From: Seonamhaeicola algicola
Lineage (GTDB): Bacteria; Bacteroidota; Bacteroidia; Flavobacteriales; Flavobacteriaceae
Direction: 5' to 3'
DNA: 64,000 nucleotides
Assembly: GCF_007997385.1 (NCBI RefSeq)
Contig: NZ_VOSC01000025.1
Coordinates: 248,292-312,291 of the forward strand
Position 1 is the stretch's first letter. Every line of letters starts with the position of its first letter. A program made the translations under genes and the position numbers. The notes under the pieces were generated by a model. It searched no databases. It was not told where the DNA came from and saw only the letters and a list, made by a program, of their open reading frames with translations. Positions 2,223 to 60,951 of this stretch are shown here, piece after piece.

Positions 2223-3176
2223 ATGAAGGTAACAGACCATATTAAAAACGCTAACGGAAAAACCTTGTTTTCGTTTGAGATTGTAACCCCGGTAAAGGGT
2301 AAAAATATTCAGGATTTGTATAATAATATAGATCCGTTAATGGAGTTTAATCCGCCATTTATTGATGTAACCACCTCGCGTGAAGAATATGTTTATGTTG
2401 AAAAAGATGGGCTTTTAGATCGTAAAACGGTTAGAAAACGCCCTGGAACTTTAGGTATTTCGGTGTCTTTAAAACATAAATACAATATTGATCCTGTACC
2501 GCATATTTTATGTGGTGGTTTTACTAAAGAGGAAACTGAGTATATGTTGGTAGATTGCCATTATTTGGAAATTGATAATGTGGTGGCGCTTCGTGGTGAT
2601 GCCATGAAACACCAAAAATATTTTGAGCCAACTAAAGGCGGACATACCTATGCTTGTGAGTTGGTGCATCAAATATCAGATTTAAATAACGGTAAGTTTT
2701 TGCACGAAGAGAATTTAACCGAGTTTAAAACCGATTTTTGTATTGGTGTTGCTGGTTACCCTGAGAAACATATGGAAGCACCATCGTTACAAACTGATTT
2801 AAAACGCCTAAAGGCTAAGGTTGATGCGGGTGCAGATTATGTGGTTACACAAATGTTTTTTGATAATCAAAAGTACTTCGATTTTGTAAAAATGGCTAAA
2901 GAAGCTGGCATTAATATTCCAATTATTCCAGGTATAAAACCGCTTGCCGTTAATAGGCATTTGCAATTATTACCACATGTGTTTAGTATAGATTTACCAG
3001 AAGATTTAATTAATGCTGTAGATAATTGTAAAAATAATGCGGCAGTTAGGCAAGTGGGTATAGAATGGGCTATACAACAATCTAAAGAATTAAAAGAGGC
3101 CGGAGTACCGGTGTTGCATTATTACTCTATGGGTAAAAGTGATAACGTACAAGCTATTGCACAAGCATTGTTTTAA
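2223..3176 (+). CDS. metF: Methylenetetrahydrofolate reductase [NAD(P)H]
   Basis: Reduces 5,10-methylene-THF to 5-methyl-THF, the methyl donor for MetH. The 317-aa protein begins MKVTDHI, the usual N-terminus for this family in Flavobacteriia, followed by FSFEIVTP and a TIM-barrel flavoprotein sequence including VVALRGD and GADYVVTQMFFD. A TTG at 2181 would add 14 residues, but that extension is encoded by the dispersed repeat just upstream, so ATG 2223 is preferred. The gene ends 31 bp before the PagL-like gene. Pairing with metH upstream fits a methionine/one-carbon group. Confidence 0.95.
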   Translation: MKVTDHIKNANGKTLFSFEIVTPVKGKNIQDLYNNIDPLMEFNPPFIDVTTSREEYVYVEKDGLLDRKTVRKRPGTLGISVSLKHKYNIDPVPHILCGGFTKEETEYMLVDCHYLEIDNVVALRGDAMKHQKYFEPTKGGHTYACELVHQISDLNNGKFLHEENLTEFKTDFCIGVAGYPEKHMEAPSLQTDLKRLKAKVDAGADYVVTQMFFDNQKYFDFVKMAKEAGINIPIIPGIKPLAVNRHLQLLPHVFSIDLPEDLINAVDNCKNNAAVRQVGIEWAIQQSKELKEAGVPVLHYYSMGKSDNVQAIAQALF

Positions 3177-3207
3177 TTAATGCTTTTAGGTATTATAGCC
3201 AAAGTTT

Positions 3208-4305
3208 ATGAGGTATTTAACCTACTTTTTATACGTGTTGTGTGTATGTTGCTTTGCTCAAAAAAAGCACTATACATCTTATATTGATGTTAATTATTTT
3301 AAAGGAAACATAGCGGAGCATAACAGTGATATTTTGCACTTAATTAAAGGGCATCCTGAAGGGTATATTATAAGTTGGAACAAAAAAACTTTTGGTTTTA
3401 AAGATTGGGAGCAACGTTTTAATTACCCAGACTATGGTGTAACGTATGCTTACCAAAACATGAAAAATCCTGATGTTTTAGGTACAGTTGCATCGTTATA
3501 CGCGCACTATAACTTTTACTTTTTTAAAAGACATTTAATGTTTAAAGTAGGGCAGGGTTTAGCATACGCTAATAATATTTACGATAAAGAAACTAACTTT
3601 AGAAATGTAGCTTATGGCAGCCATATAATGAGTAGCACTTTTGCTATGTTAGGTTATAAAAAAGAGCGCATTTTTAATAAGTTTGGTTTGCAAGCGGGTT
3701 TAACTTTAATTCATTATTCTAATGCCAATGTAAAGGCGCCAAATACCAGTACAAATACCCTTGCTTTTAATGTAGGTGTTACTTATAATTTAAATGAAAT
3801 TGAACCCAATTATCAACAAACATTAAGTGATACTGATAGGAAATTTACACAACCCATAAAGTATAACGTTGCTTTTAGGTTTGGTATAAATGAAAGTGAT
3901 GTGGTAGGTAGCGGGCAATTTCCGTTTTACATAGCTTCAGTGTATGCAGATAAACGTATTAATAGAAAAAGTGCTTTACAAATAGGAACCGATGTGTTTT
4001 TTTCAAAATTTTTAAAAGAGTTAATTTATTACAAAAGTGTGTCTTTTCCTGAGGAAGATGTCTCTGCTGATGATGACTATAAACGCGTTGGCATATTTGC
4101 AGGGCATGAATTGTTTGTAAATAAAACATCATTACTAACCCAGTTTGGGTATTATGTATATTACCCTTTTGATTTTGAAGGACGCACTTATATACGTATT
4201 GGTTTAAAACGCTATTTTGGTAAAACGTTTTTTGGTGCTTTAACATTGAAATCGCACGGAGCCAAAGCCGAAGCTGTTGAGTTTGGGGTTGGTGTTAGGT
4301 TGTAA
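3208..4305 (+). CDS. Acyloxyacyl hydrolase / lipid A 3-O-deacylase-like outer membrane protein (PagL family)
   Basis: A 365-aa protein with an N-terminal signal peptide (about residues 1-17, ending CCFAQ). The rest alternates aromatic and polar residues as expected for an outer-membrane beta-barrel. It carries the PagL-type motif HYSNANVKAPNTSTNT (around residues 170-185), where the HxS pair with a nearby acidic residue forms the catalytic site in characterised PagL enzymes. Removal of an acyl chain from lipid A is inferred from this motif only. The protein is about twice the length of classical PagL, typical of the Bacteroidota acyloxyacyl hydrolase group. It follows metF at 31 bp and precedes a lipoprotein gene at 33 bp. 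Confidence 0.8.
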   Translation: MRYLTYFLYVLCVCCFAQKKHYTSYIDVNYFKGNIAEHNSDILHLIKGHPEGYIISWNKKTFGFKDWEQRFNYPDYGVTYAYQNMKNPDVLGTVASLYAHYNFYFFKRHLMFKVGQGLAYANNIYDKETNFRNVAYGSHIMSSTFAMLGYKKERIFNKFGLQAGLTLIHYSNANVKAPNTSTNTLAFNVGVTYNLNEIEPNYQQTLSDTDRKFTQPIKYNVAFRFGINESDVVGSGQFPFYIASVYADKRINRKSALQIGTDVFFSKFLKELIYYKSVSFPEEDVSADDDYKRVGIFAGHELFVNKTSLLTQFGYYVYYPFDFEGRTYIRIGLKRYFGKTFFGALTLKSHGAKAEAVEFGVGVRL

Positions 4306-4338
4306 TTTTTAATGTTGTTTCTCAATTTTATAACATAA

Positions 4339-5085
4339 ATGAAAAAACTAGTTTATATAATTGTTTTAACTTTTGTTTTCTCTTGTGATAGTGAAAATGC
4401 AGGTGACTGTTTCCAGAAAACAGGTACTATTATACAAGAAGAAGTTTTAGTAGATGTATTTACAAAAATACTTGTAAATAGAGATATTGAATTAGTTATT
4501 GAACAAGGCCCAACACAAAAAGTTATTATTGAAACAGGAGAAAATTTAATAAATGATGTTGAAGCAAAAGTTGTTGAAAACAAATTAATATTAACCGATA
4601 ATAACAGCTGTAATTACGTGCGCAATTATGGTATTACAAAAGTGCACGTAACAGCCCCAAATATTACAGAAATTAGAAGCTCAACACAATTTGATATAAA
4701 ATCAAAAGGGGTGTTAAGCTATCCTAGTTTAGTCATTTTATCTGAAGATTTTGGAAGCCCTAATACAATTACCAGTGCCAATTTTTATTTAGAAATTGAT
4801 ACTGATACGTTTAGAGTTGTATTTAATAATTTATCAAATTGTTTTGTTTCAGGAAAAACAAATAATCTAAATATTACGTTTGCAGCAGGAACTTCGCGTT
4901 TTGAAGGGCAAAACTTAATTGCGCAAAACGTATTTGTTAATAACCGAAGTTCAAATGATATTATTGTAAACCCACAACAACGTTTAACTGGTAAAATTTC
5001 AGGAACAGGAAATGTAATTTCGTTAAATAAACCAGCAGATGTTAGTATTCAAGAACTTTACAAAGGGCGCTTAATTTTCAAGTAA
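4339..5085 (+). CDS. GIN-domain (DUF2807) lipoprotein
   Basis: A 248-aa lipoprotein with signal sequence MKKLVYIIVLTFVFSC and predicted lipidation at Cys16. The mature part is a repetitive right-handed beta-structure with the head GIN/DUF2807 pattern: short strands of the type FTKILVNRDIELVIEQG, VHVTAPNITEIRSS, GTSRFEGQNL and GTGNVISL. The function of GIN-domain proteins is not established; they are usually periplasmic or outer-membrane adhesin-like proteins of Bacteroidota. Its 3' end overlaps the 3' end of ackA on the other strand by 15 bp, so the two genes converge with no spacer. Confidence 0.85.
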   Translation: MKKLVYIIVLTFVFSCDSENAGDCFQKTGTIIQEEVLVDVFTKILVNRDIELVIEQGPTQKVIIETGENLINDVEAKVVENKLILTDNNSCNYVRNYGITKVHVTAPNITEIRSSTQFDIKSKGVLSYPSLVILSEDFGSPNTITSANFYLEIDTDTFRVVFNNLSNCFVSGKTNNLNITFAAGTSRFEGQNLIAQNVFVNNRSSNDIIVNPQQRLTGKISGTGNVISLNKPADVSIQELYKGRLIFK

Positions 5086-6258
5086 ATTAACAGCTTGTTT
5101 TGCAATTTCTAATTCTTCATTAGTTGGTACAATAAGTATTTTTACTTTAGAAGTTTTGGTGTTTATTGTTCTAATATCACTAGAGCGTAATTTATTCTTT
5201 TCACTATCTAAATTAATACCTAAATAGTCTAAATTTTCACAAGCTAAACGTCTAATTATAGAAGAGTTTTCGCCTATACCTGCCGTAAAAACAATAGCAT
5301 CAAGTCCGTTCATTATGGCCGCATAGCTTCCAATATATTTTTTTATACGGTAAGCATTCATATCTAAAGCTAGTTTACAGGATCTATTACCTTTTTCAGC
5401 GTGCTCTTGTATATCTCGTAAATCACTAAAGCCTGTAAGACCTAACATGCCACTTTGCTTTTGCAATAGGGTGTTAATATTATTTAAATCGAAACCATGA
5501 CGTTGTGCTAAATGGAAAATAACCGAATAATCAACATCGCCAGAGCGTGTTCCCATAATTAAACCACCAACAGGTGAAAATCCTAAACTATGGTCTATAC
5601 TTTTGCCGTTTTTAACAGCTGTCATGCTGCAACCATTTCCTAAGTGAATAGTGATGATTTTTGAATTTTCTTTGCCTAAATGCGTAATGGCTTTTTCTGA
5701 AACGTATTTGTGGCTAGTGCCGTGAAATCCGTACACACGAATATTATATTCATCTAAAAATTTTTGAGGAATAGCGTATTTATGAGCAATTTCAGGAATG
5801 GTTTGATGAAAAGCTGTATCAAAAACAGCTACCTGTTTTGCATTAGGGAAAATGCCTTCGGCTACTTCAATGCCTTCTAAATTATGCGGATTGTGTAAGG
5901 GTGCTAATGAAAATAATGCCTTTATTTTTTGTTTTACTTCAGCATCAACAAGTGTGGTTTTGCTAAAGTGTTTCCCACCGTGTACAACTCTGTGCCCAAC
6001 AATAGCTATATCATTGGTGCATGAAATTACACCCGTTTCTTTGTTTAAAAGTTGTTGTGCTACTAAATTTAAGCCTTCTTTATGGTTAGCAATAGGTGTA
6101 GTTTTTTCAAAGGTTTCTTTTTCAGATTTAAATTTAAAAATAGCATCATTAAAACCAATACGCTCAATTTGGCCAGAGCAAATTATGCGTTCATTTGGCA
6201 TTGAAAATAATTGATATTTTAATGATGAACTTCCGGAGTTTAATACTAATACTTGCAT
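5071..6258 (-). CDS. ackA: Acetate kinase
   Basis: Interconverts acetyl phosphate + ADP and acetate + ATP. The 395-aa length is typical. Family motifs are present in order: LVLNSGSSSLKY at the N-terminus (Asn7), GHRVVHGG with Arg90, VFDTAFH with Asp147, GFHGTSH with His179, the phosphate-binding IHLGNGCS, GTRSGD with Arg238, and TAGIGENS. It starts 4 bp after the pta stop and is clearly the second gene of a pta-ackA operon. The last 15 bp overlap the convergent DUF2807 gene. Confidence 0.97.
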   Translation of the reverse strand: MQVLVLNSGSSSLKYQLFSMPNERIICSGQIERIGFNDAIFKFKSEKETFEKTTPIANHKEGLNLVAQQLLNKETGVISCTNDIAIVGHRVVHGGKHFSKTTLVDAEVKQKIKALFSLAPLHNPHNLEGIEVAEGIFPNAKQVAVFDTAFHQTIPEIAHKYAIPQKFLDEYNIRVYGFHGTSHKYVSEKAITHLGKENSKIITIHLGNGCSMTAVKNGKSIDHSLGFSPVGGLIMGTRSGDVDYSVIFHLAQRHGFDLNNINTLLQKQSGMLGLTGFSDLRDIQEHAEKGNRSCKLALDMNAYRIKKYIGSYAAIMNGLDAIVFTAGIGENSSIIRRLACENLDYLGINLDSEKNKLRSSDIRTINTKTSKVKILIVPTNEELEIAKQAVNLLEN

Positions 6259-6262
6259 AATT

Positions 6263-8350
6263 TTATTGGTCTTGGGCTTGAATGGCAGTTATAATTACAG
6301 TGCTGTAAATGTCATCAGATGTGCAACCTCTACTTAAATCGTTTACAGGTTTATTAAGGCCCTGTAGCATAGGGCCAATGGCTAAGGCACCGGTTTCGCG
6401 TTGAACAGCTTTGTAGGTGTTGTTACCGGTATTTAAATCTGGAAAAATTAAAACACTAGCTTGTCCTGCTACTTCAGATTCTGGTAGCTTGCTTTTTCCA
6501 ATGCGCATATCAACAGCTGCATCATATTGAATTGGGCCTTCAATTTTTAAATGAGGCGCTAAGTTTTTAGCAATTTCTGTGGCTTTTCTAACTTTATCAA
6601 CCTCTTCACCTTTTCCTGATGAACCCGATGAGTATGATAACATGGCAACTTTAGGTTCAACACCAAACTTTTTTGCAGTTTGAGCTGATGAAATAGCAAT
6701 TTCGGCTAATTGTTCTGCATTTGGGTTTGGGTTAATGGCGCAATCGCCAAAAATAGAAACTCTGTCTTCTAAACACATAAAAAATACTGATGAAACAATG
6801 TTTGCGCCAGGTTTTGTTTTTATAAATTGAAGTGCAGGCCTAAGGGTGTGTTGCGTAGTGTGTACAGCACCAGATACCATGCCGTCTGCATGCCCTTTGT
6901 GAATCATCATTGTGCCGTAGTATGACACATCAGACATGGCGTCTTTTGCCATATCAAGGTTTACACCTTTATGTTTTCTTAATTCATAAAACGTATTTAC
7001 ATAATCATCAAAATGTGGTGATTGTGTTGGGAAAACTACATTTACTTTATTTATATCTAAAGGAATATCGTATCGTACAATACGTTCTTGTATTTTTTCT
7101 TTTTCGCCAATTAGTGTAATATCAACAACTTGTGCGCCAACTAGTTTAGCGGTGGCTCTAAGTACGCGTTCATCATAACCTTCTGGTAAAACAATATGTT
7201 TTTTGTTTTTAAGCGCTGTTTGTAATAGATTGTATTGAAACATTCTAGGGGTGAATATTTCAGATTGAAAGGTTACAAGTTTATCGGCTAACTTGTCAGT
7301 ATCTACATGCTTTTCAAACGTAGCAATAGAGGTGTTTATTTTATCTGTGTTTTCAGCGTAAATTCTAGATTTAACTTTGCCAATGGCGTTGGTAGCATTA
7401 AATGTACCTTTGTTAACGCTTATAATAGGTACAACGCTTGATAGTCCTTCAATAAGTTTTAAAATAGGTTCTTCGGGTAGTAAGCCACCAGTTAAAACAA
7501 TACCTGAAATTTGTGGATAATTTTTTGATGTGTGCGCTTGTAACGCACCAAGAATAATATCGGCTCTATCACCCGATGTTATTACCAACGAGCCTTCTTT
7601 TAATTTTGTAATATAGTTTCTTAATTGCATAACACCAACTCCCGAGTTTTGTACTTGGTTGTTAAGCATATCTTTACCAAAAAGTACTTTGGCATCAAGG
7701 GCTTTAACAATTTCTTTTATGGTTGGGTTTGCTAAACTTTCAATTTTAGGTATTACAGCAAAATCTGTACTGTTAATACGTGCGTTAAGTTCGGTTTTTA
7801 AAGTAGTAATAGCATCATTATTTACTTTATTAACCATTATTGAAAGTACATCAACTTCCTCTTTAAAGGTATCATGTGCTAACTGAACGCTGTCTAAAAT
7901 ATCTCTATTTTTTTTGCCATCACCATGAATAACAATAATAACAGGTAAACCAAGGTTTTTTGATATGAGCATGTTAATATCAAGCTCTAAACTAGAGTTT
8001 TCGTGAGAAAAATCGGTGCCTTCAACCAAAACTAAATCGAAATGTTCTTCAAGGCGTTTGTATTTTTTTATCACTTCATCAATAACATACCCAGATTTGC
8101 CTTGGTTGTACAAATCTAAAACTTCACTACGTGTAAAGGCGTACGTTTTTTTGTAATTAATATCAATTTCAAAATGCGAAATAACGGTGTTAATATGGTT
8201 ATCCATTTCGCCAGCAGCAACATCTTCAATAATGGGTCTAAAATATCCAACTTTTGCTGTTTTACCTAAAAGCATACGCATAAGCCCTAAAACCACAACA
8301 GATTTACCACTATTAGGCTCTATGGTAGCTACATAAATTCCTTTGCTCAT
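6263..8350 (-). CDS. pta: Phosphate acetyltransferase (long form)
   Basis: Converts acetyl-CoA + phosphate to acetyl phosphate; with AckA it forms the acetate overflow/ATP pathway. The 695-aa protein has the long three-part architecture: an N-terminal dethiobiotin-synthetase-like P-loop domain (EPNSGKS near residues 11-17), a central DRTGG domain (about 215-330), and the catalytic PTA domain from about 370 (LPEGYDERVLRA, then SYSSGSSGKGEEVDKVR, VAGQASVLIFPDLNTGN and RETGALAIGPMLQGLNKPVNDLSRG). The start ATG at 8350 is 457 bp from the GH16 gene; the upstream 166 bp appear to be the ancestral gldA-pta spacer. Confidence 0.97.
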   Translation of the reverse strand: MSKGIYVATIEPNSGKSVVVLGLMRMLLGKTAKVGYFRPIIEDVAAGEMDNHINTVISHFEIDINYKKTYAFTRSEVLDLYNQGKSGYVIDEVIKKYKRLEEHFDLVLVEGTDFSHENSSLELDINMLISKNLGLPVIIVIHGDGKKNRDILDSVQLAHDTFKEEVDVLSIMVNKVNNDAITTLKTELNARINSTDFAVIPKIESLANPTIKEIVKALDAKVLFGKDMLNNQVQNSGVGVMQLRNYITKLKEGSLVITSGDRADIILGALQAHTSKNYPQISGIVLTGGLLPEEPILKLIEGLSSVVPIISVNKGTFNATNAIGKVKSRIYAENTDKINTSIATFEKHVDTDKLADKLVTFQSEIFTPRMFQYNLLQTALKNKKHIVLPEGYDERVLRATAKLVGAQVVDITLIGEKEKIQERIVRYDIPLDINKVNVVFPTQSPHFDDYVNTFYELRKHKGVNLDMAKDAMSDVSYYGTMMIHKGHADGMVSGAVHTTQHTLRPALQFIKTKPGANIVSSVFFMCLEDRVSIFGDCAINPNPNAEQLAEIAISSAQTAKKFGVEPKVAMLSYSSGSSGKGEEVDKVRKATEIAKNLAPHLKIEGPIQYDAAVDMRIGKSKLPESEVAGQASVLIFPDLNTGNNTYKAVQRETGALAIGPMLQGLNKPVNDLSRGCTSDDIYSTVIITAIQAQDQ

Positions 8351-8807
8351 TATACCTGATTTATGTTATAAAGATACGCTTTGTAGCTTAGCAAAACACG
8401 CACCTTTACTAGTTTAATTTTATATTATGCAACAAATGTAATGTAGGTGTGTTTTTTTTAAGATGACAATTATCATGAATTTACAGAAACATGAAAATTG
8501 GTTAACCAATAAGTGCTTTTAAGATGTAGTTAAATCTCTAAATAAATTTTACAGGCTTATATTTTATTTATTTTACGTTGTTGTATAACCAAAACAAAAA
8601 GTATAAGTATCGTGTTTTGGTAGTAAAGTAATAATATCAATGCTTTGTTGTGAAATTAATATCATTAGATTTTTGAGTAATTATCAATACGCCGAAAGGG
8701 TTTCGTTAGTTTTCGTAAAAGAAGTGTTTATTTTTTTTGGATTTGATAAAAACTTGATTTTCAATAATTAATTTTATTGAAATTAAACTAAATAAAACCA
8801 AATAATT
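8351..8807. other. pta-GH16 intergenic region with palindromes and the left 34-bp repeat
   Basis: No gene is visible. Features seen: a near-palindrome ATGACAATTATCAT at 8463-8476, a perfect 14-bp palindrome ATTGGTTAACCAAT at 8497-8510, the left direct repeat at 8517-8550, an inverted repeat CGAAA-GGG-TTTCG at 8693-8705, and arms TTTCAATAA (8759-8767) / TTATTGAAA (8774-8782) just before the GH16 start. The part left of 8551 is probably the old spacer between gldA and pta; the part to the right probably came in with the GH16 gene. Confidence 0.6.
8517..8550. repeat. Left 34-bp direct repeat (copy of gldA 3' end)
   Basis: Identical over 34 bp to 10485-10518, which contains the last ten codons and stop of gldA (encoding ENLFRDLTTS). 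The repeat begins TTTTAAGATGTAG and ends CTAAATAAATTTT. No gene is attached to this copy. Right of it, similarity to gldA drops sharply; a few scattered matches including GCTT remain, which A/T richness could explain. Confidence 0.9.
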
Positions 8808-10424
8808 ATGAATGAATTTAAAAAATTCACAGCAAAACTTAAAATTACATTTTTACTTTTTACTTGTCTTTTTGTAGGGCAAGTCTCTTTTGGTCAGCCA
8901 CCTGGAAGTGGTTGGGGTAACCCTGTATTTCAAGATGATTTTTGGGGGAACTATAATACACCAACAGGATTAAATCCTGCAAAATGGAGGTGGAAAAATA
9001 ATAATGATAGTACAGGTGGAGATGAAGCGCAGTTTAGAGAGAATATGGTAAGCGTTTCTAACGGTATTTTAACCATTAGCAATAACCTTGTTAGCGATAA
9101 TAAAGCTGGTAGAAGAGGAGGATGGGTAGATTCCAAAGTTTTTTTTGGTAATGGAGGAACATTCCCCAAGTATGGATATTTTGAGGCAGATATAAGGATA
9201 AATAGACAAGGTATTAACTTTAATTGGATAGGAGGAAAAATATGGCCCACATGGTGGATATGGCAGTCTCAGCAAAATGGTTATACACCAACTGAGTTTG
9301 ATATAATGGAGTATAGCAGATGGACTAATTTTAAAGCAGATGATAATGCCACAAGCTCACATCATTATAGAAATAAAGCAGCTATTGGGCCTAACGGAGC
9401 TCAAAAATTTGCCATAACAGATAAGAACTCTCCTAGGGATGAATTTAATTGGCATAAATGGGGTATGCTATGGACGCCTACTGAAGTTACTTTTTATTAT
9501 GATGGAGTTCCCTATGGTTCTTCTGATAGACCTGGAGATGCTGCTCAAGAAAATATTCCTTTAAAACTAATTTTCTCTTCTAGTCCTCATGTAGTTACTC
9601 ATCAAGATACACCACCTATTTATGCTCCAAAAGTTTCAGATATTCTTCCGTCTTTTCAAATCAGATCTGTTAAAGTATGGCAAGGAGGAAATCCTGGAAA
9701 TGGAGGAGGCTCTTCTAATGATGCCCCTGTTGGGGCTACAATTACTATAAAACCTGTAAAAGCTTCATGGATTAATAATACGTTTGATAATCTATCTGCA
9801 AGATTCAATGAAAATGGTATAGTTCGCCCAAATGTTAATGGAGCTGGAGAATGGGAAAAATTTGTAGTTGAAGCAGGAGCGAATGGAAATGTAAGATTGA
9901 AAGTTAAAAACTTTGGTAATGGATATAGATATTTAACTACTTCAGGAGATAATGCTTTAGTAAACGGAACTTCTGCAACAGCTGCTGGAGCACAATATAA
10001 ATGGGTTAAAGTAGGTAGTAACACTTTTGGTTTGCAAAGTGTGGCTACAGGAAAATGGATTCAAATTCCTCAAAATCAAAATAAAAACACGGCTACCTTA
10101 AACACTAAAGGCGCGCAACGAGGTGATTGGGAGTTGTTTTCTTATACAATAGTTGGTACAGCTAAAAATACAAAAAGTAAAGCAGAGGTTAGCAATGATG
10201 TTACTTCAATTAAATTGTATCCTAATCCAGTAAAGTCAGGAGATGTTGTTAGTTTAGGATCAAACCTAGAAGATGTAAATATAAAAGTTTATAATTTAAA
10301 TGGTTCACTTATTTTAAAAAGTAGAAAAGCTGCATTTAGTACAACGGGTTTAACAGCTGGCTTGTATTTTGTAGATGTAACATCAAAAAGTAATCACAAA
10401 ATAATGAAATTAGTAGTAGAGTAA
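8808..10424 (+). CDS. Secreted GH16 glycoside hydrolase with trefoil-like domain and type IX sorting domain
   Basis: A 538-aa secreted enzyme. Signal peptide about 1-29 (ending SFGQ). GH16 catalytic domain about 35-292 with the active-site motif EFDIMEYS: Glu163 nucleophile, Asp165, Glu168 acid/base, the ExDxxE beta-bulge form seen in laminarinases, agarases, porphyranases and carrageenases. A Gly/Ser/Asn linker at 293-308 is followed by a domain at about 309-447 resembling a fascin/ricin-like beta-trefoil (WEKFVVEAGANGNVRLK, GQ-like repeats), possibly carbohydrate-binding. A type A T9SS C-terminal domain at about 467-538 includes YPNPV and GLTAGLYFVDV. The substrate cannot be fixed from sequence: agar, porphyran, carrageenan or laminarin. 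GGA glycine and AGA arginine codons are commoner than in neighbouring genes, and 34-bp direct repeats flank the gene, so it looks acquired. Confidence 0.9.
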   Translation: MNEFKKFTAKLKITFLLFTCLFVGQVSFGQPPGSGWGNPVFQDDFWGNYNTPTGLNPAKWRWKNNNDSTGGDEAQFRENMVSVSNGILTISNNLVSDNKAGRRGGWVDSKVFFGNGGTFPKYGYFEADIRINRQGINFNWIGGKIWPTWWIWQSQQNGYTPTEFDIMEYSRWTNFKADDNATSSHHYRNKAAIGPNGAQKFAITDKNSPRDEFNWHKWGMLWTPTEVTFYYDGVPYGSSDRPGDAAQENIPLKLIFSSSPHVVTHQDTPPIYAPKVSDILPSFQIRSVKVWQGGNPGNGGGSSNDAPVGATITIKPVKASWINNTFDNLSARFNENGIVRPNVNGAGEWEKFVVEAGANGNVRLKVKNFGNGYRYLTTSGDNALVNGTSATAAGAQYKWVKVGSNTFGLQSVATGKWIQIPQNQNKNTATLNTKGAQRGDWELFSYTIVGTAKNTKSKAEVSNDVTSIKLYPNPVKSGDVVSLGSNLEDVNIKVYNLNGSLILKSRKAAFSTTGLTAGLYFVDVTSKSNHKIMKLVVE

Positions 10425-10445
10425 ATTTAAATTCTATTAAATTTT

Positions 10446-10488
10446 AAGAAGCTACCTTAAAATAAAAGGTAGCTTCTTTTGTTTTTTT
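10446..10488 (+). terminator. Intrinsic terminator of the GH16 gene
   Basis: A 13-bp perfect stem, AAGAAGCTACCTT (10446-10458) with AAGGTAGCTTCTT (10466-10478), loop of 7, followed by TTTTGTTTTTTT. It lies 21 bp after the GH16 stop and its T-run merges into the right 34-bp repeat. In the other direction it may also end gldA transcription, with a weaker T-run. Confidence 0.85.
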
Positions 10489-10518
10489 AAGATGTAGTTA
10501 AATCTCTAAATAAATTTT
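10485..10518. repeat. Right 34-bp direct repeat (native 3' end of gldA)
   Basis: Same 34 bases as 8517-8550, in the same orientation, 1968 bp apart. This copy is part of the intact gldA gene: it holds the TAA stop (10487-10489) and the ten preceding codons. Confidence 0.9.
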
Positions 10519-11380
10519 CTAAGCTTGCGTTTTTTTGATTTAGTTGAAGAATTTTTAACTTATTATCATGCGCAAAATCAAAAACATGCGCACGCATATC
10601 TTCTGAGGTGTTAAACGTAATTTCGTAAACAAAATCATGTGTGTTGGTAACCTTACTAACTTTTGGTAGTTGTTTTAAAAAGGCATCTTCAACACGGTAA
10701 TCAAACTCTACAATAACAGTTTGTTCTTTATCGTTTCGTAATTCTGAAAGCTTTTTGTCGGCAACAATTTCGCCTTTATTAATTATAATTACACGGTTGC
10801 ACATGGCTTCAACCTCTTGCATTATGTGTGTTGAAAGAAATACTGTTTTGGTTTTGCCAATGGTTTTAATAAGGTTTCTAATATCAATTAACTGGTTAGG
10901 GTCTAAGCCTGTAGTGGGTTCATCTAAAATTAAAACATCGGGGTTATGTAAAAGTGCAGTTGCTAATCCAACACGTTGCCTGTAACCTTTTGATAGTTGT
11001 CCAATTTTTTTATGCGCTTCGGGTGTTAAACCTGTAAGTTCAATAACATCATTAATACGTGTTTTTTCTACTTTATAAACACCAGCATTAAAAGCAAGAT
11101 ATTCTTTTACGTATAAATCTAAATACAACGGATTGTGTTCTGGTAAATAGCCAACACTTAATTGTACATGTTTGCTGTTGGTTATATTATGGTTGTTAAC
11201 ACTTGCTCTGCCGTTAGTTGGTTGTAAATAGGTGGTTAAAATTTTCATCATGGTAGATTTACCTGCACCATTAGGCCCTAAAAACCCAACAATTTCGGGT
11301 TTCTTTACTTCAAAAGACACATTATTAAGTGCTTTTTGGTTGCCGTAATGTTTTGAAATACCGTTAACCGTAATAGACAT
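10487..11380 (-). CDS. gldA: Gliding motility ABC transporter ATP-binding subunit GldA
   Basis: A 297-aa ABC ATPase. Walker A GPNGAGKST (residues 35-43), signature LSKGYRQ (129-135), Walker B LILDEP (150-155), followed by the switch His in STHIMQEVE. Whole-length resemblance to Flavobacterium GldA is strong, including KILTTYLxPTxG, GYLPEHNPLYLDLYVKEYLAFNA and the C-terminal ENLFRDLT. With GldF and GldG it forms an ABC transporter described for gliding bacteroidetes; neither partner gene is in this window. Its last ten codons are duplicated at 8517-8550, flanking the GH16 gene, so the gene has been used as an insertion point but remains intact. Confidence 0.92.
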   Translation of the reverse strand: MSITVNGISKHYGNQKALNNVSFEVKKPEIVGFLGPNGAGKSTMMKILTTYLQPTNGRASVNNHNITNSKHVQLSVGYLPEHNPLYLDLYVKEYLAFNAGVYKVEKTRINDVIELTGLTPEAHKKIGQLSKGYRQRVGLATALLHNPDVLILDEPTTGLDPNQLIDIRNLIKTIGKTKTVFLSTHIMQEVEAMCNRVIIINKGEIVADKKLSELRNDKEQTVIVEFDYRVEDAFLKQLPKVSKVTNTHDFVYEITFNTSEDMRAHVFDFAHDNKLKILQLNQKNASLENLFRDLTTS

Positions 11381-24890: not shown

Positions 24891-24994
24891 AGGGCATTAC
24901 CCACAAGGGGTCGGGCTTTCGGCAGTCGCTTTTTTGTGTTGCATAGGTGCAACAACACAAAAAGAGCTTCAACAAAAGCCTCAATCCCTAATGC
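24891..24994 (+). repeat. Hairpin repeat family, copy A
   Basis: A 104-bp unit beginning AGGGCATTACCC and ending CTCAATCCCTAATGC, so its ends (GCATTA/TAATGC) are inverted. The centre forms a long hairpin: CTTTTTTGTGTTG against CAACACAAAAAGAG around a small loop. It shares its outer blocks nearly base for base with copy B (60861-60951). Confidence 0.9.
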
Positions 24995-60860: not shown

Positions 60861-60951
60861 GGGCGTTACCCATAAGGGGTCGGGCTTTCGGCAGTCGCTT
60901 TTTGCTCGTGCCTCACAAAAGAGCTCCAACAAATGCCTCAATCCCTAACGC
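60861..60951 (+). repeat. Hairpin repeat family, copy B
   Basis: A 91-bp unit beginning GGGCGTTACCC and ending CTCAATCCCTAACGC; ends GCGTTA/TAACGC are inverted. It starts only 6 bp after the TPR stop codon. Shared with copy A: GGGGTCGGGCTTTCGGCAG, TCGCTTTTT, CAAAAGAGCT-like block, CAACAAA and GCCTCAATCCCTAA; the central hairpin is shorter. Confidence 0.9.

Follow-up and report, generated by a model that had tools for sequence, protein, structure and literature searches.

Introduction

The closest described systems for foreign DNA at the intact end of a host gene are cis-mobilizable elements (CIMEs) and integrative mobilizable elements (IMEs) at the 3' ends of housekeeping genes on the one hand, and homology-facilitated illegitimate recombination (HFIR) on the other. 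CIMEs and IMEs are bordered by direct repeats, one copy of which completes the target gene, and elements without integration genes that retain attL and attR are known according to PMC5704250. In HFIR a single homologous anchor is combined with a short homology at the other joint, and foreign DNA is gained without a dedicated recombinase; PMC6382021 gives its frequency in natural transformation as 1e-2 to 1e-3 of that of homologous transformation. Natural competence is reported, in PMC7965970, for Riemerella, which is placed in the Flavobacteriaceae. Here we describe a locus of Seonamhaeicola algicola (Flavobacteriaceae) at which a gene of the glycoside hydrolase family GH16 is inserted between two copies of a 34-bp direct repeat at the 3' end of the gliding-motility gene gldA. 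The window, i.e. the whole stretch of DNA analysed, comprises 64,000 nucleotides (contig NZ_VOSC01000025.1, positions 248,292 to 312,291, assembly GCF_007997385.1), and coordinates refer to it unless another locus is named.

With CIMEs and IMEs the locus shares direct repeats of fitting size, one of which completes the target gene. It differs in that a single cargo gene makes up the insert, genes for a recombinase or for transfer being absent (a CIME need not have them), that no second case occurs in 99 other gldA loci, and that relatives at the same site carry no repeats. With HFIR it would share the features named above, to judge from one sequence, whereas the duplication of 34 bp of the anchor gene sets it apart. 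The gene product resembles the modular GH16 enzymes of marine Bacteroidota (porphyranase, carrageenase and laminarinase folds) in its GH16-like profile and fold and in its C-terminal sorting domain for secretion; unlike those, it is encoded outside a polysaccharide locus, and the closest relatives of its catalytic domain are not those of its C-terminal module. The locus offers a readable scar of a single putative polysaccharidase gene entering the chromosome of a marine flavobacterium at a place that is no polysaccharide utilisation locus, and it shows a catalytic-domain exchange in a type of gene that another genus carries at this site. If the gldA end should serve as a repeated anchor, it would predict where newly gained algal-polysaccharide enzymes may sit.

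Results and Discussion

The right repeat copy (10485-10518) takes in the gldA stop codon and the nine sense codons ahead of it, together with two bases of the codon preceding these and two bases beyond the stop. The gene itself (10487-11380, minus strand), coding for the ATP-binding subunit of the gliding-motility ABC transporter, is intact (TIGR03522 GldA_ABC_ATP, 4.7e-137, 456 bits at a cut-off of 403). An exact match in the same orientation is found at 8517-8550, the starts of both copies being 1968 bp apart. This left copy is attached to no listed open reading frame (ORF) and borders a 166-bp spacer (8351-8516) that includes the upstream region of the left neighbour pta, the phosphate acetyltransferase gene (6263-8350, minus strand; Pfam PTA_PTB 2.5e-130, DRTGG and AAA_26). 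Between the copies lie 1934 bp of inserted DNA (8551-10484, plus strand) with a GC content of 0.328, compared to 0.327 for the window.

In all six congeners the corresponding site is empty: pta follows 178-227 bp past the gldA stop, and the spacer contains no GH16 gene. Congener matches to the window protein are partial or weak and located elsewhere (best 2.3e-18, residues 298-537, in the sister species G002), and in G006 none was found. The window segment 8351-8516 aligns with the pta-gldA spacers of the congeners; a AAATTGGTTAACCAA stretch common to loci L036 and L037 ends about 7 bp before the repeat. Arithmetically, deletion of 8517-10484 leaves a spacer of 168 bp. Since the congener spacers are too short to hold the gene and the left flank of the insert is native spacer, the insertion is real. 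The left copy occupies the position at which spacer and gldA end originally adjoined, and one of the two copies is new. The GH16 gene is a true insertion adjoining an intact gldA.

The insert encodes little else. ORFs of at least 90 aa between the repeats are the GH16 gene and two opposite-strand ORFs nested within it, and no recombinase, transposase or transfer ORF was found in this size range; shorter relics were not searched for. A terminator-like hairpin of the GH16 gene (10446-10478, plus strand, 13 pairs, 5 of them GC) sends its T tail into the right repeat. The preliminary description of this locus had reported the exact recurrence of the 34 bases at this spacing, a gene-free left copy beside the original gldA-pta spacer, and between the copies nothing apart from the GH16 gene, its own upstream region and a terminator, with no integrase or transposase, all of which agrees with our findings. 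It had also proposed to align the gldA-pta interval of related genomes and had named two contrary patterns, relatives with the GH16 gene and both repeats or with both repeats and no GH16 gene. Neither was seen in the six congeners, whose sites are empty and show the left flank to be native. Of its integration geometry, the insertion beside a whole gldA at a site empty in the six congeners stands, and the gldA end as attachment site of a mobile cassette finds no support.

The length of the repeat exceeds expectation for random sequence. In 30 random first-order Markov sequences, each 64 kb long, the maximal length of exact repeats was 16-19 bp, and the 34-bp pair is the sole exact direct repeat of at least 19 bp in the window with copies less than 35 kb apart. 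Besides this pair, the exact direct repeats of at least 18 bp comprise a 30-bp one, with its copies separated by 36 kb, and two 18-bp ones. A search of the whole draft genome (3.7 Mb, 32 contigs) with the 30-bp core and up to three mismatches returned these two copies and none beyond them. As a separate observation, the exact 30-bp repeat (24905-24934 and 60874-60903) is GC-rich within a window of 33% GC and is probably an interspersed intergenic element.

Repeat pairs of this kind occur elsewhere in the genome. In a 400-kb sample (20 stretches) exact repeats of at least 24 bp within 8 kb were present in four stretches. One of them is a 42-bp exact direct repeat (L143, 12311-12352 and 12785-12826) in the intergenic gaps flanking a ribosomal-protein gene, presumably that of S13; another pair (L142) lies directly upstream of two paralogous receptor genes, and L145 contains one further pair. 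The fourth stretch holds a cluster of exact repeats of up to 85 bp, including CAGTCTTCAGTCATC-like simple units (L146, about 2369-5155). Because the 42-bp pair flanks a ribosomal-protein gene, a flanking repeat pair alone is no proof of mobility, and the case for an insertion at gldA is made by the empty sites, not by the repeat pair. The repeats around the ribosomal-protein gene, like the draft state of the assembly, could also be taken as signs of an assembly artefact or a coincidental duplication. Flanks and insert are, however, coherent, the assembly has a completeness of 100 and a contamination of 0.01, and the GC content of the insert equals that of the window, though the GC content at third codon positions is 0.18 in the GH16 gene and 0.24 in gldA and pta. 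We regard this explanation as very improbable.

The inserted gene (8808-10424, plus strand) codes for a protein of 538 aa with a signal peptide and catalytic domain (8808-9692), a C-terminal module (9696-10172, residues 297-455) and a Por secretion (type IX secretion system) C-terminal sorting domain (10203-10421; PF18962, 3.4e-10). With the single sequence, Pfam GH16 scored 19.7 bits, under the cut-off of 22 bits, and a search of the PDB matched the sorting domain and nothing else. A profile of four sequences found GH16 structures nearest, with the beta-porphyranase 4AWD first (5.5e-12), and a fold search likewise returned GH16 enzymes, the top match being a GH16 carrageenase (1.7e-12; low-confidence model, mean predicted local distance difference test score 59.6). 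Residues E163, D165 and E168 are invariant across the four aligned proteins; we take them to be the ExDxxE motif of GH16. The assignment to GH16 thus rests mainly on the profile match to 4AWD, and the product is probably an enzyme acting on seaweed polysaccharides.

A protein scan of genome contigs yielded two relatives. In one of them, L064 (CANMLX010000001.1, an uncultured member of the Flavobacteriaceae), a GH16 gene occupies the pta-gldA gap as in the window, in like orientation and without the repeat. In a phylogeny based on gldA, pheA and a part of pta, L064 lies outside the clade of the window and the six congeners, with 100% ultrafast bootstrap (UFBoot) support for the split. Within the genus of L064, relatives of its GH16 protein at E <=1e-40 occur in 2 of 12 genomes, L064 counted, and the two are of different types. 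In the second, G435, the GH16 gene (L182, 6070-9108) is likewise convergent to gldA and lies about 85 bp from its stop; beyond it RhaT-like genes follow, not pta. This gene is 87% identical in the catalytic domain and 75% in the module to that of G276, a member of another genus in which gldA is directly followed by pta (L074) and the GH16 gene is located about 486 kb from gldA. The DNA similarity between the G435 and G276 loci spans the gene (L182, 6081-8130) and not its flanks.

The identities to these relatives differ along the window gene. For the catalytic domain (residues 28-262) the values are 83% to a protein of Aquimarina aggregata (L063a), 73% to a Persicobacter plasmid protein and 43% to L064. 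The C-terminal module shows 76% identity to L064, 40% to G435, 37% to G276 and 20-21% to the Aquimarina and Persicobacter proteins, and the sorting domain is 58% identical to that of L064. The roughly 150 bp upstream of the gene (8655-8807) are homologous to the upstream region of the L064 gene (local alignment score 44, null 24.9 +- 3.7, 0/1000 shuffles), and 8551-8807 has no similarity to the upstream region of the Aquimarina gene (z 0.1). Since module and upstream region match L064 and not Aquimarina, the likeness to Aquimarina is limited to the catalytic part. On these comparisons the window gene is a mosaic of an L064-type upstream region, module and sorting signal with a catalytic domain of Aquimarina/Persicobacter type. 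Two tandem GH16 genes of Aquimarina share 33 identical bases at the signal-peptide region (L063, 10013-10045 and 11839-11871) at 48% identity of their catalytic domains, which hints at catalytic-domain exchange behind a common leader there.

The likeness to L064 could also be explained by old vertical inheritance, with the GH16 gene present in the common ancestor of both genera and lost elsewhere, and the repeat formed later by recombination with an empty allele or by gene conversion. The module identity of 76% indeed comes near the values for the neighbouring proteins (81% for gldA, 79% for pta), and the homologous upstream regions fit as well. Such a history would require losses in all six congeners, whose spacers resemble one another and the native spacer of the window, and further losses in most of the genus of L064, where the relatives are few and of different types. 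We therefore judge it improbable.

We favour, with a probability of roughly 0.55, a gain of the GH16 gene through recombination of an empty with a GH16-bearing allele, in which gldA was the anchor and the other side was closed by a join at short homology, some 34 bp within gldA, that duplicated its tail. The recipient would have started with an empty pta-gldA spacer. The bearing allele, in which the GH16 gene was already convergent to gldA, may have belonged to a strain of the same species or to an L064-like relative, and its gldA end would have served as the homologous anchor on the right side. On the left side an illegitimate joint would have formed: recipient DNA would have extended across the native spacer as far as some 34 bp into gldA, followed by a short-homology switch to the upstream DNA of the GH16 gene. 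The gldA tail stretch would thereby be present on both sides as the 34-bp repeat, with gldA kept whole, and a dedicated recombinase may have been dispensable. Of this course the insertion, the tail duplication, the L064 gene at the same site and the mosaic are shown, whereas the direction of transfer, the anchor, the switch and the dispensability of a recombinase are inferred. In favour of it, the site is empty in the congeners with the native spacer retained, a GH16 gene already stands beside gldA in a relative, namely in the same gap and convergent in L064, and the window gene has upstream DNA, module and sorting domain in common with that gene.

Several points weigh against it. Over the last 149 nt of gldA the identity to L064 is 79%, that to the six congeners 73-83%, and no block in gldA is nearer to L064 than to the congeners, as a donor-like tract would be, although a conspecific donor would leave none. 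(This comparison uses later windows; the first ones were out of register for eight rows with a gldA one codon longer.) The identical tails need either a conspecific donor or two recipient-derived copies, and the absent tract fits both alike and therefore supports neither. L064 is not the direct donor, since its own gldA tail differs. The similarity at the left joint is modest, was tested post hoc and fades by 48 nt. Moreover, 34 bp falls inside the range of 8-60 bp given for att repeats in PMC5704250, and Flavobacterium johnsoniae is reported as not competent in PMC7965970.

On the gldA-body side of the left copy the similarity to gldA extends over 15/23 positions (8551-8573), compared to 13/40 on the opposite side. 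This weak continuation, a possible junction homology, is equalled by 0.07% of the window 23-mers and would fit an anchor at gldA with an illegitimate closure on the left. A gldA-tail profile built from 69 relatives gave scores at the left joint that are reached by 0.28%, 0.02% and 0.17% of null positions for spans of 12, 24 and 36 nt, and by 4.4%, 5.9% and 8.3% for the longer spans of 48, 60 and 72 nt. All of them lie far under the scores of a genuine gldA tail, and the length was picked after the fact.

The identity of both copies and the missing donor sequence in gldA would also be accounted for if gldA underwent a staggered break or a template switch in one recipient cell and a DNA patch with GH16 closed the gap; both 34-bp copies would then stem from the recipient itself. 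The position of the right joint in a T run common to terminator and repeat is in accordance with this course. By itself it leaves the GH16 genes at gldA in L064 and G435 unaccounted for, and it departs from recombination between a bearing and an empty allele at the right-hand joint only. We consider it quite unlikely.

The preliminary description had suggested a mobile single-gene cassette. In such a site-specific integration at the gldA 3' end the 34-mer would be the att core and the insert a minimal or decayed CIME-like element, with the recombinase acting in trans or lost. The repeat length, the housekeeping-gene end carried by one copy and the gene left whole conform to this, as do known elements that kept their att sites after loss of their integration genes. 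The genome contains six ORFs with a tyrosine-recombinase domain, one of which shares the contig with the insert at a distance of about 180 kb, and gldA-side similarity past the left core is expected from an element-borne gldA end. The insert itself, however, contains no recombinase ORF of at least 90 aa, and, as the most telling point, the same-site GH16 gene of L064, like that of G435, is not accompanied by a tail copy. The 34-mer shows no inverted core arms of the recombinase kind: dyad symmetry does not exceed chance, with best arms of 7/9 that 43% of shuffles equal. Its 24-bp core occurs as an exact match in no viral contig. A peptide-pattern scan of viral contigs for the GH16 protein matched three stretches, none of them a relative (a phage collection was not searched), and a plasmid collection contained one relative of 48% identity inside a Persicobacter polysaccharide locus. 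Insertions at gldA were not met in titles or abstracts among the few literature matches listed.

A further contrary point is the comparison with 99 other gldA loci, taken one per genome and checked for duplicates. They consist of 29 loci, 60 further ones, L064 and nine more of its genus; the 60 are the top of 105 further places (119 less 14 already included), with G354 and G199 skipped, where gldA stands at a contig end. Over at least 3 kb 61 of the loci were seen, and 38 over about 1.5 kb. An exactly duplicated gldA tail of more than 12 nt downstream was found in none of the 99. Degenerate copies at the far side of the GH16 genes of L064 and G435 and in the cargo loci L078 and L075 were also absent (p 0.22-0.88), at a positive control of 0/1000 for the window. 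Because no other locus shows it, the tail duplication resembles a one-off scar. Site-specific integration is thus unlikely in our view. The proposed search for the 34-mer beside other cargo yielded nothing in viral contigs or at the gldA loci, and the mobile cassette is not borne out. Of the two routes suggested earlier, an unseen recombinase or homology-assisted capture, the latter fits better, recurrence, symmetry and an integrase in the insert being absent for the former. As homology-assisted capture is a known process, a new way of spreading algal-polysaccharide enzymes finds no support. Ordinary recombination between relatives is the best reading of the scar, rather than a novel type of mobile element.

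What adjoins gldA at its 3' side varies between loci, yet tail duplication was met once. In 48 of the 99 loci pta follows within 450 bp, in 27 a homologue of window 4339-5085 comes next, in 12 either of them appears only after a longer gap, and in 12 neither was seen in the flank examined. Genes in the gaps of inspected loci we take to be sulfatase-like (L075), IclR- and RhaT-like (L170) and short-chain dehydrogenases (L173, L180); short hypothetical genes occur as well, e.g. in L078 and L087. In L075, the gldA 3' flank of G356, pta is replaced after gldA by other genes, presumably sulfatase-like and formylglycine-enzyme-like.

Three of ten compared GH16 proteins (window, L064, G435) are encoded next to gldA, and no gldA was found in the surrounding 5 to 22 kb of the other seven genes. 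Their catalytic types are 41-43% identical to one another. The far side varies (pta, pta and RhaT-like genes, respectively), and the gldA side stays the same. Both L064 and G435 came to light by similarity to the GH16 family and form a biased sample for gldA adjacency; among 89 loci picked irrespective of GH16, none has a match to the window protein adjoining gldA (29 seen over 1.5 kb). Relatives at E <=1e-12 occur in 6 of 397 genomes of the family, our own included. Tentatively, genes for secreted GH16 enzymes might have landed repeatedly at the gldA 3' side in Flavobacteriaceae, the conserved gldA end acting as homology anchor for single-gene capture and catalytic-domain exchange, with the 34-bp tail copy as the scar of one capture. 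The repeated presence of unlike GH16 genes at this side is a lead worth following.

Further features of the locus were surveyed. An insertion sequence or transposon was rejected as origin of the insert, with no transposase candidate ORF of at least 90 aa and no inverted repeat pair joining both insert ends among the matches listed (25 of 39). A presumed second copy of the pta upstream region within 8551-8655 was discarded as well, the similarity not being significant (p 0.11). No Rfam match was obtained for 8300-10700 at gathering scores, no tRNA gene in the window and no PADLOC match. In the spacer upstream of pta a TGA-N6-TCA palindrome (8464-8475) is kept in 8 of 9 aligned relatives and resembles, as we assume, a site of the CRP/FNR type.

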